A stretch of 64,000 nucleotides of DNA from Halichondria panicea (Eukaryota > Porifera > Demospongiae > Suberitida > Halichondriidae): the NCBI RefSeq assembly GCF_963675165.1, contig NC_087378.1, forward strand, positions 1,605,525 through 1,669,524, given 5' to 3'. Positions 1 through 5,403 of the stretch are shown piece after piece. The position numbers and the translations under genes were made by a program. Below the pieces are notes generated by a model. The model ran no database searches, was not told where the DNA came from, and saw only the letters and a program-made list of their open reading frames with translations. Position 1 is the stretch's first letter, and every line of letters begins with the position of its first letter.

Positions 1-76
1 CCTACACTGCACCTGCAAGAGCTTATTATGCCTCAATATAATGAAAGAATTGTCATCAGCTTTATATTTGCTGTAG

Positions 77-1896
77 AGTTGAGGAAAGGACAGCTTCCTG
101 AGCAAACTGCTGAGAAGTTTGTGATTGACGATGCTACTAAGCAGTCTACTGGAGTGGTTCTGTTTGACTTCATTGCAAAGTGTGTGGCGGAATTTGTCAA
201 GAAACAGAACATCACCACAAAGCTACCCCTCGGCTTCACCTTCTCCTTCCCTGTTAAACAGTTGAGTCTCACCTCGGGCACTCTTATCCGTTGGACCAAG
301 GACTTTACAGCTACTGGGGTGGTGGGTGAGAACGTCGTCCAACTGCTCAAGGAAGCTTTCGTTAGGAGAGGAGTGAGTATGTGCATTTGTGTATTATGTA
401 GCCTGAGTTCAAACAATCTTCTACTAGCTGTAGTAATGTGCTGCAAGCCTGCAATTGATTCTATCTAGCAACCTTGTAATTTACAATGCAAAATTTACAA
501 TACAATTTGACCATGATTCTCCCGTAATCTCTAATTTAAAAGCAGCTCCAAAGCAAGTCTGCATGATTAAGTATTTCTCCCTTGTGTAGGATATTGATGT
601 GGACGTGGTGGCCCTTGTCAACGACACCACAGGAACACAACTAGCTGTGGGTTACCTTGACAACAACTGTCTGATTGGACTCATCCTGGGCACTGGTACC
701 AATGCTTGCTACATGGAGCAGCTGTCTGCAGTCGGCAAGTACACTGGCGATAAAAATAAGTACTCCCAAGTGATTATCAACTGCGAGTGGGGTGCCTTTG
801 GTGATGATGGAAGTATAGACCCGTGGCTCACCACCTATGACAAGGCACTCGATGAACTGGTGCAGAATAAGAAACAGCAGCTGTGAGTTGCGTAGAGATC
901 GTTTGTTGAGCACTTGCAGCTGGTAACTATAGTACCGCACCTTGTTGATTTCTCCCTTCTTGAACCTGATTTGTTTTGGTAGCCAACTTTAGGTTGCAAG
1001 GCTGTTATATCTGATCATCATTCTCACTAACCCTCCCTCCCTCCATTTTGGTAGGTATGAGAAGATGATCTCTGGCAAGTACCTCGGTGAGATTGTGCGA
1101 CAAGCCCTTCTCTCACTGATCAAGAATGGAGTTCTCTTTGGGGGAAAGTCTTCAGAAAAATTTAGCAAATTTGAGGGGTTTGAGACACAGTATGTTTCAA
1201 TGATAGAAGCTGGGTGAGTTGTCATTGTGCAATGTTGTATGCTAGTACTACATTGTTGATCACGTGGTAATCACAAGGATAGCCATTGAGATCCTTGGTC
1301 TAGAGAACATGCACATCATTGTATATATTCACATTCAAATCATTACCCCTTAATTTTTGCATGCACACATCACTAGAGATGTAGCCAATTGTAAGAAAAT
1401 CTTCAAGGATGTATTCTCCATTGAAGCGTCCGATGAGGACTGTCAGAGTGTTAAGAGAGTGTGTGCAGCCGTGTCCACTAGAGCAGCCAGATTGGCCGGT
1501 GCTGGGGTGGTCGCTCTCGTCAAGAAGATCAATAAGTTGGGTGGATGCACCGTGGCTGTCGATGGTTCACTGTATAAGATGCACCCGACATTCCGTCAGA
1601 AGTGAGCTAATTATGCACGCTAGATATATAGTATGTGTGCCTTCAAGCCTTCCTTGTGGAGGTGCTAAGCATACCCCACCCACCTTCTTATCACATTCCC
1701 CATATTCCATGCATGTGACCTTGAAGCCCTACATAGTCGGCTACTTTCATGTATTCCTTTTTCCCACAGTATGGATGATGCCATGAATGAGCTGGCCCCT
1801 GGAAACAAGATCACCATGAAGCTCTCTGAGGATGGGTCTGGGAGAGGAGCAGCCATTGTGGCAGCTGTTGCCTGTAGACTCACAAAGACTGAGTGA
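77..1896 (+). CDS. Hexokinase, 3' exons (5' part outside window)
   Basis: ATP-dependent hexose phosphorylation, first step of glycolysis, cytosolic. Five exons are visible: about 77-372, 590-882, 1055-1213, 1377-1601 and 1770-1896 (stop TGA 1894-1896); GT-AG boundaries and phases agree throughout. They encode about 366 residues, the C-terminal three quarters of a single hexokinase unit. Landmarks in order are LPLGFTFSFP, the catalytic-Asp region NDTTGTQLA, the glucose/ATP loop LILGTGTNACYME, EWGAFGDDG, and near the end VDGSLYKMHP and the adenosine-binding SEDGSGRGAA. The upstream exons lie off the left edge. The first acceptor (AG at 75-76) is the least certain boundary. The protein ends soon after the hexokinase core, so this is a single-unit type or the last half of a duplicated one; the window cannot say which. 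Confidence 0.95.
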
Positions 1897-2010: not shown

Positions 2011-3471
2011 TCATACTTTAAAATGTTCAGCAAATGCATTGAAAGTCGGTTTATCAAGTATCACAATTCGAATATCCGCCAGAACAGGAAAAGATTTGGT
2101 ATACTTGTGCTGCATAATTGAGTTGAAAATACATTTTGCAACAACTTTTTTGTTTCCTCTTAGTCCACCAGCACTAATAGCCGGAATTGCAATTGATGTA
2201 GCCTCTTCCTTCTCAGCACACTCTAACACCTCTTTAATGCATTGACATAACACCGACTGTGCTCCTGAATCTGAATCACGAATCCAACCAGGACCAAAAG
2301 CATGTAAAACCTTCTTGCAGTCCAGAGCACCTCCTGCTTCTGTTAGAAAAGGAGCTGCACACACGTTTTCACCTGGATGCTCTTCTAAGTACTGAGTGGT
2401 GTACTGCTTAAGAAGTCCATCACTAGCTTCATTGAGAGCCTTAGAAACACCCATTACATAGTCAAAATGTTCTGCTCCTGCATTAACGATAATATCAGCA
2501 TTCTCCATGGCAATGTCTCCTCGTTTGAGTTCTAACTTTCGATGACTTGAAATATCGCAAAAAACTTCCAGTTTGTGAATTCGTCTTAGTTCAGAAATCA
2601 AAACTTCTTTCCTTTGCAGTTCACGCTTCATCCATTTTGATTGTTCCTCAACATGCTTTTGAAGTTTGCTCATCGTCATTGACATTTCGTTAAACTTTGT
2701 CTCCCAATACTCAGACACCTCTCTTAGTTGCTTGTCTTTCTCTGTGAGTTGCTTGGAAGCAAAGGCAGTCTGCAAGCTGAGGTGTGTGTACACATCGTCC
2801 TGTTGATGCTGTGCCATTTTCTTCCTCAAAACTCTCTTCAGACAACCAGCGTAGCTGAACTCACACTCCACCACTTGCTCAGGACAGGCTAGCAAATGTT
2901 CAGGATAGCTAGATCTCGTAATGTTATCAGAATTGCAAGGGCATTCGATAGGGAAGGCTGGGCACTCGTGCACGTGGTCTTTTGTAACCACCTCAAACAC
3001 ATTCTCGAACCCACAGTGTTCACATGTGTACGGACGCTTGTGACAGAAACGCTCCAGGTGCTCGGCTAACTCGTACAGCTCCATCTCTTCACCACACCCA
3101 TTGGTGCACTCGACATCGATATACTCGCAGTTACCCTCCTGGGGGTCCAAATGTTTGTCTCGTGTCCCAACCTCCCCCTTCCAATTGCACCCCCTGCCTT
3201 TGAGGGGACAGATCACATCCAGCTCCATGATTTTCTTCCACTTTGGTTTGTCCACAATGCACAGATAGTCAGTCTCAAGGCACTCTTTGTTTGGGCATGG
3301 TTGTTTAGTTTGGAACAATGGCTCTATACAGCTCTTGCAGAAGTGTTTTCCACAGCAGTTGGTCAGCATTGGCTCTTGCAAGATGTCCCCACACGTTGGG
3401 CAGAAGCAGTCGCTCGAAGGAGGGTCCACAAAGTCCCATGAGTACGTAGTACCAATCTTTTCCAGCTCCAT
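2011..3471 (-). CDS. TRAF-type RING/zinc-finger protein fused to a macro domain (copy A)
   Basis: Single-exon gene, 486 residues from the ATG at 3471. The start was chosen because the next copy begins at the equivalent place; the frame is open upstream to 3657 with other in-frame ATGs, so a longer N-terminus is possible. Residues about 22-64 form a TRAF-like RING (CPTC, CCGKHFCKSC, CPNKEC). About 80-225 are Cys/His-rich TRAF-type zinc fingers. About 235-310 are charged and likely coiled coil. About 315-480 form a macro domain with GDI, IVNAGAE, MGVSKAL, HAFGPGW and AIPAISAGGL. TRAF proteins normally end in a MATH domain; none is present. By family, RING suggests E3 ubiquitin ligase activity and macro suggests binding or hydrolysis of ADP-ribose. 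The combined function is inferred. Loop 1 lacks the usual Gly triplet, so ADP-ribose binding is uncertain. The lack of introns contrasts with intron-rich neighbours. Confidence 0.85.
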   Translation of the reverse strand: MELEKIGTTYSWDFVDPPSSDCFCPTCGDILQEPMLTNCCGKHFCKSCIEPLFQTKQPCPNKECLETDYLCIVDKPKWKKIMELDVICPLKGRGCNWKGEVGTRDKHLDPQEGNCEYIDVECTNGCGEEMELYELAEHLERFCHKRPYTCEHCGFENVFEVVTKDHVHECPAFPIECPCNSDNITRSSYPEHLLACPEQVVECEFSYAGCLKRVLRKKMAQHQQDDVYTHLSLQTAFASKQLTEKDKQLREVSEYWETKFNEMSMTMSKLQKHVEEQSKWMKRELQRKEVLISELRRIHKLEVFCDISSHRKLELKRGDIAMENADIIVNAGAEHFDYVMGVSKALNEASDGLLKQYTTQYLEEHPGENVCAAPFLTEAGGALDCKKVLHAFGPGWIRDSDSGAQSVLCQCIKEVLECAEKEEATSIAIPAISAGGLRGNKKVVAKCIFNSIMQHKYTKSFPVLADIRIVILDKPTFNAFAEHFKV

Positions 3472-3756
3472 CACAGAAGTTCCCAATTTGCAATGTCTTT
3501 GAAGTGCTTGGTTCATAGATACTATAATTATGCTTGGTTGATGCATAGATATGGTTGATGGCTGGCTGCACATGTCCCGTTGGAATGCAATTAGAACCAG
3601 ACGTTTCATCGCGTGGTACACAAGGCAGGAGGGGGTGGTGTTAGTCTCGTGGGCCACTTTGAATATATCAGTGCATCACGAGACTAGGGGGTACAAACTG
3701 GGGAATCCCCGATGTTGGTCTAATTTATAATACAGATCAAAATTATGTGATCACAA

Positions 3757-5220
3757 TTACGCATCTGACATTAATTTGAGCATAAAATGAGTGGCAAATG
3801 TTTCATAGGTTGCACTATCTATGACGACTATTCTAATATCAGAAAGGATTGGAGGTGGCTTGGTGAATTTATGATGATAGATAGTGTCAAAAATGGTCCT
3901 TGCCACAAGGTGTATGTGACGTCTCAAATTACCACCGCCAATGGCAGGAATTGCAATGGAACAAGCATCTTTTTGCTCAGCAGTGGTCAGAATTTTAGCT
4001 ATAAGATGAGCTATAATAGTTTCATTACCACTGTCATCATTGATCCTTGTATACGAGCCTGGTCCAAAAGCATTTATAACCGACTTGCACTGAAGATTGC
4101 CTCCTCCCTGACTCACAACAACTGATCCCACATAAGGGCTAGGGGTAGCTTTCATCCTGAACTGCTTCTCGAGGTTACCTTTGCTAGCTTCGTTGAGAGC
4201 TCTGGCCACACCATAGTCAAATGACAAATCAGATGCTGCTGCATTAACGATCACATGAACACACTCGTTGGCGATATTTGCCTGCTTAAGGATAAGCTTT
4301 CGTCCTTGGCTGAAAGTAAGTGATAATCCCAGTTTACAAATAAGTCCTTTAAGTTTATCAATCTTCTTTGATAGCCTTACCTCTTGCTGTTCATGTTGTA
4401 CTGTAAGTTGTTCCATTTTGAGCTTCACTTCACAAAATCTTTCTTCCCAGGAATGGTAAAAATCGTTTAGCTGTTTGTCTTTCTCTGTGAGTTGCTTGGA
4501 AGCAAAGGCAGTCTGCAAGCTGAGGTGCGTGTACACATCGTCCTGTTGATGCTGTGCCATGTTCTTCCTCAAAACTCTCTTCAGACAACCAGCGTAGCTG
4601 AACTCACACTCCACCACTTGCTCAGGACAGGCTAGCAAATGTTCGGGATAGCTAGATCTCGTAATGTTATCAGAATCGCAAGGGCATTCGATAGGGAAGG
4701 CTGGGCACTCGTGCACGTGGTCTTTTGTAACCACCTCAAACACATTCTCGAACCCACAGTGTTCACATGTGTACGGACGCTTGTGACAGAAACGCTCCAG
4801 GTGCTCGGCTAACTCGTACAGCTCCATCTCTTCACCACACCCATTGGTGCACTCGACATCGATATACTCGCAGTTACCCTCCTGGGGGTCCAAATGTTTG
4901 TCTCGTGTCCCAACCTCCCCCTTCCAATTGCACCCCCTGCCTTTGAGGGGACAGATCACATCCAGCTCCATGATTTTCTTCCACTTTGGTTTGTCCACAA
5001 TGCACAGATAGTCAGTCTCAAGGCACTTTTTGTTTGGGCATGGTTGTTTAGTTTGGAACAATGGCTCTATACAGCTCTTGCAGAAGTGTTTTCCACAGCA
5101 GTTGGTCAGCATTGGCTCTTGCAAGATGTCCCCACACGTTGGGCAGAAGCAGTCGCTCGAAGGAGGGTCCACAAAGTCCCATGAGTACGTAGTAGCTTTC
5201 TTTTCCATTTTTCCATCCAT
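3757..5220 (-). CDS. TRAF-type RING/zinc-finger protein fused to a macro domain (copy B)
   Basis: Single-exon, 487 residues, ATG at 5220 (start MDGKMEKK). Same architecture as the gene immediately downstream: RING at about residues 20-60, TRAF zinc fingers to about 220, coiled coil (KLKMEQLTVQHEQQEVRLSK) to about 300, then a macro domain. The first 240 or so residues match copy A with only a few substitutions (NKKC for NKEC, CDSD for CNSD, KNMAQ for KKMAQ). The coiled coil and macro domain are strongly diverged. In the macro domain the usual GDI Asp position reads QANIAN, the second motif is IVNAAAS, and loop 2 is GGGNLRRH, so canonical ADP-ribose recognition may be altered or lost. The start lies 183 bp from the divergent TCERG1 ATG, suggesting a shared promoter region. 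Confidence 0.85.
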   Translation of the reverse strand: MDGKMEKKATTYSWDFVDPPSSDCFCPTCGDILQEPMLTNCCGKHFCKSCIEPLFQTKQPCPNKKCLETDYLCIVDKPKWKKIMELDVICPLKGRGCNWKGEVGTRDKHLDPQEGNCEYIDVECTNGCGEEMELYELAEHLERFCHKRPYTCEHCGFENVFEVVTKDHVHECPAFPIECPCDSDNITRSSYPEHLLACPEQVVECEFSYAGCLKRVLRKNMAQHQQDDVYTHLSLQTAFASKQLTEKDKQLNDFYHSWEERFCEVKLKMEQLTVQHEQQEVRLSKKIDKLKGLICKLGLSLTFSQGRKLILKQANIANECVHVIVNAAASDLSFDYGVARALNEASKGNLEKQFRMKATPSPYVGSVVVSQGGGNLQCKSVINAFGPGSYTRINDDSGNETIIAHLIAKILTTAEQKDACSIAIPAIGGGNLRRHIHLVARTIFDTIYHHKFTKPPPILSDIRIVVIDSATYETFATHFMLKLMSDA

Positions 5221-5403
5221 GTTAATTACGACGGTTAATTAATTTACTGTAAGCGGAGTGAGTTTCACAAGGTGGCGGAAACCTAGACTCGCATGCCGTC
5301 ACTGTTGCAGGCTGGCTGGCGAGTCTAGCGGAAACCCAGATGCAGTGTAATGTAGGGAAAACCCCTATCTTGGCAGATAAACCTGTGAATATAAATCAAG
5401 TCA
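5221..5403. promoter_or_regulatory. Divergent intergenic region between TRAF-macro B and TCERG1
   Basis: A stretch of 183 bp separates two start codons pointing away from each other, so both core promoters and 5' UTRs must lie here. It contains a short inverted repeat (AGACTCGC near 5286 and GCGAGTCT near 5311) flanked on both sides by GCGGAAACC. No TATA box is obvious. Bidirectional promoter function is inferred from spacing only. Confidence 0.4.

Follow-up and report, generated by a model that had tools for sequence, protein, structure and literature searches.

Why should a chain that begins like a TRAF-type ubiquitin ligase end in a macrodomain? The question is raised by two neighbouring genes, here called genes 1 and 2, in a stretch of 64,000 nucleotides of contig C2 (C2:1605525-1669524), referred to below as the window. 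It belongs to a genome of 131 Mb in 39 contigs. On the minus strand, each gene runs as an uninterrupted frame from a RING-like part through TRAF zinc fingers and a predicted coiled coil to a macrodomain, over 486 codons in gene 1 (ATG at 3471, stop codon at 2011-2013) and 487 codons in gene 2 (ATG at 5220, stop codon at 3757-3759). The two genes are arranged head to tail with 285 bp between them. Their features, in window positions, are as follows.

2011..3471, minus strand: gene 1, a single open frame of 486 aa with RING-like part, TRAF zinc fingers, predicted coiled coil and macrodomain
3292..3402, minus strand: gene 1 RING, C3HC4-like, below the cut-off (Pfam)
2806..2976, minus strand: gene 1 best zf-TRAF stretch, one of two passing (Pfam)
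2724..3464, minus strand: near-identical TRAF block, gene 1 copy, 741 bp, 98.65% identity to gene 2
2602..2751, minus strand: gene 1 predicted helix / coiled coil linking the TRAF and macro parts, residues about 241-290 (AlphaFold block with predicted local distance difference test, pLDDT, of 64-84)
2131..2487, minus strand: gene 1 macrodomain (Pfam; match to solved structures)
3757..5220, minus strand: gene 2, a single open frame of 487 aa with RING-like part, TRAF zinc fingers, predicted coiled coil and macrodomain
5035..5145, minus strand: gene 2 RING, C3HC4-like, below the cut-off (Pfam; aligned with the genome's other TRAF RINGs)
4549..4719, minus strand: gene 2 best zf-TRAF stretch, one of two passing (Pfam)
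4467..5207, minus strand: near-identical TRAF block, gene 2 copy (alignment of both genes)
3898..4248, minus strand: gene 2 macrodomain (Pfam; top solved matches are PARP14 macrodomains)

Domain assignments were judged by the Pfam curated cut-offs (22 bits for Macro, 27 for zf-TRAF and 27 for RING PF13923). Macro PF01661 was found above its cut-off in both proteins (gene 1, E 5e-14, 52.7 bits; gene 2, E 2.2e-12, 47.4 bits). Counted from the initial Met, the hits span roughly residues 329-447 and 325-441 respectively, inside the interval of residues 315-480 to which the original prediction had tied its macrodomain. zf-TRAF PF02176 passed as well, in two stretches per protein (E 1.7e-13 in gene 1 and 7e-14 in gene 2). 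When compared by sequence with solved structures, residues 78-242 of gene 1 (numbered on its 554-aa frame) matched TRAF6 RING-zinc-finger structures with E about 1e-9, and residues within 369-553 of the same frame matched macrodomains of PARP14, PARP15 and PARP9, with E 1.3e-20 for PARP14. At such E-values, chance can be excluded as the source of the zf-TRAF and macro matches. The MATH family was absent from either window protein at E up to 1 in Pfam, its usual end being occupied by Macro, and Pfam revealed neither WWE nor ART in these proteins. Both genes preserve the Cys/His pattern of the RING, in which they differ by one residue (E/K). The fusion of a TRAF module with a macrodomain, claimed by the original prediction as a tandem arrangement in single open frames, is confirmed by sequence for both genes, with exact coordinates and no stop inside.

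A second cluster on the same contig

The fusion is not confined to the window pair that the original prediction described. The genome gave 25 macro matches, and the 24 of them other than that at C16:4948186 lay in the window or in retrieved stretches. Four were found with a TRAF module in the same open frame, namely genes 1 and 2 and two frames (1073 aa and 870 aa) of a second cluster, some 0.5 Mb from the window on contig C2. This far cluster (C2:1077967-1093300, loci L014 and L015) comprises four tandem predicted genes, A to D. In four different sets, these bring together the same TRAF module, a macrodomain related to those of the window, an exon for a Death-like domain, and a Deltex RING with the Deltex C-terminal domain (RING-DTC).

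C2:1077967-1081576: gene A, unassigned segment-Macro-Death-RING-DTC, no TRAF in that stretch; steered gene model
C2:1081819-1084300: gene B, TRAF-RING-DTC, no macro; steered gene model
C2:1084513-1089799: gene C, TRAF-coil-segment twice-Macro-Death-RING-DTC; steered gene model
C2 from 1090006: gene D, TRAF-coil-segment-Macro, followed by a Death-like frame; RING-DTC not seen as far as about 1096.5 kb

The exons behind the far-cluster macro frames encode a Death-like part (PF00531, E 0.0017 and 0.003, under the cut-off), a proline-rich stretch, a RING (PF13923, E 5e-12 and 2e-11) and the DTC (PF18102, E 1e-41 and 4e-42). Among solved structures, the DTC exon matches DTX3L best (E 6e-33), better than DTX2 or DTX1. 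A genome-wide profile search with PF18102 returned seven matches in two places, namely the far cluster (genes A, B and C) and C8:1551 kb, and none in the window.

The TRAF module and Macro of gene D lie in one open frame and are thereby independent of the splicing model. For the other genes, strict splice scores gave no model for A or C, and a model for B that left out the RING exon; the accepted models of A to C were steered, i.e. obtained with looser splice scores and a bonus for peptides already seen in open frames. Exons 4 and 5 are not of equal length in A and C, and the similarity of introns 2-4 is about that of the exons; the boundaries there are doubtful, and the agreement between A and C, which partly reflects their being young duplicates, lends the models weak support. 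Each of the three long DTC matches contains one TAA, the match overrunning the 98-aa exon frame in two genes, or the stop of gene A, by about 2 residues. A stop follows each far-cluster macro frame unless it is spliced, and Death-RING-DTC may be a gene separate from these frames. Between A and C, dN (nonsynonymous divergence) is lower than dS (synonymous divergence) in the RING-DTC part (0.062 and 0.15), and no constraint was seen in the Death-like part (dN 0.091, dS 0.064) or the proline-rich part (0.048 and 0.025). Compared with B and D, gene C is short by 2 nt directly after the ATG common to them, and its RING/TRAF module has no in-frame ATG ahead of it there; TRAF, Macro and Deltex in one working chain, as modelled for this gene, is a prediction with a flaw, namely a damaged-looking start.

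PARP14 and DTX3L have KH domains, and KH was considered for the segment preceding the far-cluster macrodomain. It was rejected, Pfam at E up to 10 giving none in one segment and a meaningless E of 0.16 in the other; a longer cut of the segment matched no Pfam family at E up to 1.

The TRAF halves of the two clusters were compared using phmmer with the window TRAF module as the query (E 1e-8; window and retrieved loci, with open frames of 100 aa or more). Forty-nine matches were obtained, and among the macro loci only the window and the far cluster had any. After seven fragments, duplicates or weak matches had been dropped, a tree of 42 modules placed the macro-linked ones together with a TRAF-only neighbour (90/86, below the starred level), inside a 99/99 set with modules labelled kinase-linked, a placement for which the tool warned of long branches meeting. 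The kinase label was given to 14 rows by locus and C-terminus, and Pfam confirmed the kinase domain in the six that were scanned. Five of the 42 modules carry two extra residues in the last RING knuckle (CPNKEC/CPNPEC). They are those of the window pair and of genes C and D, which are macro-linked, and that of their TRAF-only neighbour, gene B, and the insertion speaks for a single origin of the macro-linked TRAF modules. When 13 macrodomains of the genome were placed in a tree, the window pair and A, C and D constituted one set (98/99) apart from the eight others, with the macrodomain of gene A, which is without TRAF, sitting among the four TRAF-linked ones. An ordering of the fusions on this tree was given up: six of ten inner branches are open, and the four TRAF-linked macrodomains do not make up one side of a branch.

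It should be added that TRAF zinc fingers also occur in single frames with tyrosine/serine-threonine kinases (L026:3698-6682, L026:7445-9742, L028:1308-3218, L028:3820-5577, L031:3694-5718 and L033:4-1798), and that these fusions share a supported tree set with the TRAF-macro modules. zf-TRAF is strongly expanded in the genome: of 677 first-look candidates, 150 were scored and gave 150 matches, those listed being all over the cut-off and often close together on contigs C3 and C6. At L016:2418-6665, one PARP14-like frame (1416 aa) holds Macro, WWE and a PARP catalytic domain and is a candidate ADP-ribose writer, and a separate frame just upstream of it (L016:6709-8841) may be RRM-like, as judged by eye. 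No stretch of viral contigs matched, and 86 stretches of bacterial and archaeal genome contigs fitted a pattern with 0 confirmed relatives, as expected for an animal gene.

Mosaic divergence and macrodomain loops

The halves of the window genes differ in their divergence. The near-identical block over the RING and zinc fingers has sharp edges, and from codon column 241 onwards, across the coiled coil and macrodomain, DNA identity is 43-64% per 30-column block. Between genes 1 and 2, dS amounts to 0.027 for the TRAF half but 1.57, near saturation, for the macro half, where dN is 0.53. This is most simply explained if the two genes are an old tandem pair whose macro halves diverged long ago, and if gene conversion (or recent copying) later carried the TRAF half from one to the other. 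The mosaic is seen only in the window pair, since in the far cluster TRAF and macro halves are alike in divergence (dS about 0.14 and 0.10-0.14). Compared between the window and the far cluster, macro halves gave dN/dS of 0.20-0.26 in the four of six pairs with finite dS, the remaining two being saturated.

The original prediction allowed the macrodomain either to read or to remove ADP-ribose. We compared three motifs (NxxN, GG loop and SxGxFG), which we take to be of MD1 (first macrodomain) type and which were read off alignments with PARP14. The far-cluster macrodomains retain NPAN, GGGV and STGIFG; the loops read NAGA, VMGV and SAGGLRG in gene 1 and NAAA, DYGV and GGGNLRR in gene 2, and the window pair thus lacks the PARP14 MD1-like residues. 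Matched against single macrodomains, gene 1 gave PARP15 3v2b (4.1e-12), PARP14 4abk (4e-11), PARP9 9qyd (1.3e-10) and PARP14 MD1 3q6z (1.7e-10), and gene 2 gave 4abk (4e-11), 3v2b (2e-9), 9qyd (7.5e-9) and 3q6z (2e-7). For gene D, with the best 60 of 98 matches considered, PARP14 3vfq (2e-35), PARP14 MD1 3q6z (8.5e-24) and PARP9 9qyd (6.5e-22) were on top. We take 4abk to be PARP14 MD3, and 9qyd is presumably PARP9 MD1. PMC10499325 identifies 3q6z as PARP14 MD1 and reports that PARP14 MD1 and PARP9 MD1 hydrolyse ADP-ribose and PARP14 MD2 and MD3 do not; MD2 and MD3 are described as binding modules in PMC13224862. Because the NxxN, Gly-rich-loop and STGIFG features kept by the far cluster are lost in the window pair, its macrodomains are likelier to read ADP-ribose than to remove it, more clearly in gene 2 than in gene 1, and the removing half of the earlier alternative fits this pair poorly.

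The plus-strand neighbours of the pair are a hexokinase exon within window positions 1-465 on one side and, from about 6601 on the other, a gene with WW, TCERG1-type WW and FF domains. Imperfect hairpins with CTAG(A/T)CTCG-type stems lie 5' of each fusion gene (3642-3686 and 5283-5328). They were considered as a family-specific element (CTAGWCTCGY stems) and rejected, close forms of the motif recurring elsewhere in the window and in the fetched loci, which makes a dispersed repeat likelier.

Proposed function and its rivals

We propose that each window gene encodes an ADP-ribose-guided, oligomeric TRAF-type RING ubiquitin ligase (E3), or an E3-like scaffold, in which a PARP14-family macrodomain replaces MATH, and we would give this proposal nearly even chances. 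The coiled coil would cluster the chains, the macrodomain would serve as the targeting end by binding mono-ADP-ribose on targets, and the RING-zinc-finger half would recruit a ubiquitin-conjugating enzyme (E2) and build ubiquitin at the ADP-ribosylated target; in function such a protein would resemble RNF114/RNF166 or RNF146, assembled from other parts. The architecture lies in one frame, each half has its homologues and the macro halves have dN below dS. The TRAF half is a transferable module, since the window TRAF halves match modules with kinase or MATH ends in the genome; far-cluster relatives bring it together with a Deltex RING-DTC, and ligases that pair a RING with an ADP-ribose reader exist (PMC12583694). 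Beyond this we infer that a single transcript carries both halves, that the protein oligomerises, works with an E2 and binds ADP-ribose, and that it serves in immune or stress signalling, a mechanism that homology makes plausible.

Several observations weigh against the proposal. The RING matches PF13923 with E 1.8e-4 in gene 1 and 1.1e-3 in gene 2, both under the curated cut-off, and the residue before its second cysteine is Thr (CPTC) in the window pair versus Leu in the far cluster. The AlphaFold model of both aligned window proteins (mean pLDDT 39, predicted template modelling score 0.23) has the helix at about 241-290 as its only confident run and is too poor for inspection of the macrodomain pocket. 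In gene 1, reader-type and MD1-type macrodomain matches score alike. The GD(I) aspartate contacts adenine, and the macrodomain of gene 2 starts without it (ANIA); ADP-ribose binding by this protein may be weak or lost. Furthermore, dS of the macro halves is near or beyond saturation, so that dN/dS there is rough.

The sub-threshold RING, the CPTC in place of a hydrophobic residue and the coiled-coil-region helix as the sole confident part of the model would all suit a scaffold gated by ADP-ribose and devoid of ligase activity, the TRAF half of which oligomerises and docks partners, as it can in TRAF adaptors, while the macrodomain senses ADP-ribosylation. However, the RING Cys/His pattern persists in both genes and a CCGxxFC-type RING is common in the genome's other aligned TRAF modules, and we consider such a scaffold unlikely. 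The macrodomain might instead strip ADP-ribose from targets that the TRAF half ubiquitylates. In favour of an eraser stand the nearness of the gene D macrodomain to PARP14 MD1 and PARP9 9qyd, the motifs kept by the far cluster and the hydrolase activity of the two MD1 domains (PMC10499325), but the window pair carries other residues at all three motifs, which renders an eraser improbable here.

Neutral domain shuffling would explain the pair differently: TRAF modules would have been copied before many ends (kinase, MATH, macro, Deltex) with no joint function, the two genes perhaps being drifting paralogues. Among 10 open reading frames with TRAF modules scanned by Pfam, six had kinase ends and two had MATH over the cut-off, proportions which carry no meaning because the loci were picked from a zf-TRAF list favouring long frames. 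Shuffling would also fit the window pair being without Death-like and Deltex parts, the 2-nt difference at the start of gene C and the lack of constraint in A and C over the Death-like and proline-rich stretches. Against it, both window genes keep a full-length open frame, and their macro halves have a dN lower than dS; we hold it to be quite unlikely. Finally, the fusion could be partly a genomic illusion, the halves being separate products or both window genes sharing one bicistronic transcript. The gap between the genes is indeed short, and on the minus strand neither AATAAA nor ATTAAA turned up within 3472-3759 or 1701-2013, but neither fusion has a stop or frame break inside, and this explanation is very improbable.

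Alongside the proposed ADP-ribose-guided ligase stands a wider picture that we regard as possible, though doubtful. The genome would hold a shuffled ADP-ribose/ubiquitin family in which a single chain (genes A to D) can join a TRAF-type E3, a PARP14-MD1-like eraser, a Death-like part and an ADP-ribose-ubiquitylating Deltex RING-DTC; the window pair would be its short reader-type members, with the ligase half kept uniform by gene conversion and the macro half diversifying, as in a conflict-driven immune family.

Known systems and what the fusion may mean

With its RING-like part, TRAF zinc fingers and predicted coiled coil, the window pair follows the order of TRAF2-6 (RING, TRAF zinc fingers, coiled coil, MATH), and it has a sequence match to TRAF6 structures; it differs from them by a macrodomain instead of MATH and by the two extra residues in the last RING knuckle. 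With PARP9/DTX3L and PARP14 it would share the coupling of a RING ligase to PARP-type macrodomains. Those are separate, interacting chains in the vertebrate system (PMC13224862; PMC12687431), whereas the window pair has a TRAF-type ligase module and neither Deltex RING-DTC nor ART. The parallel with DTX3L/PARP9 drawn by the original prediction is, for the window pair, an analogy only; it is closer for the far cluster, where the predicted genes A and C, on steered models, join a macrodomain to a Deltex RING-DTC whose DTC is closest to DTX3L. Deltex ligases ubiquitylate ADP-ribose (PMC7615817). RNF114 and RNF166, as described in PMC12583694, are RING-zinc-finger ligases with a Di19-UIM reader for ADP-ribosyl-ubiquitin, and combine ligase and ADP-ribose reader in one chain as proposed here; their reader is a Di19-UIM and ours would be a macrodomain, with which the architecture is compatible. 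PARP14-like macroPARPs have macrodomain homology in common with the window genes, which are without WWE and ART and carry a TRAF front half.

Sponge PARP14-like genes with macrodomains have been described, and the available part of PMC4245714 mentions no TRAF proteins alongside them; TRADD-N proteins form a large architecture-shuffling family in the sponge Amphimedon (PMC8195603). A full-text literature search, with most subscription journals outside its scope, yielded no description of TRAF plus macro or macro plus DTC in one protein and no paper naming zf-TRAF together with PF01661. The earlier statement that no such family had been described holds within that incomplete scope, and literature silence speaks only weakly for novelty.

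How ADP-ribosylation and ubiquitin act on each other has become a field of study only recently, and its vertebrate players PARP9, DTX3L and PARP14 are separate chains. The window fusion is more than a curiosity because a second cluster links the same modules to Deltex, and these relatives hint at single-chain machines linking ubiquitin and ADP-ribose tags. A natural fusion of a TRAF-type ligase with a PARP-type macrodomain, in relatives also with Deltex, would, if true, provide independent evolutionary evidence that these activities work together, and the fusion proteins, if functional, would be compact systems for testing the order of the steps. Should the host be an early-branching animal, this would suggest that the tie of TRAF-type signalling to ADP-ribose is not only a vertebrate, interferon-era invention.

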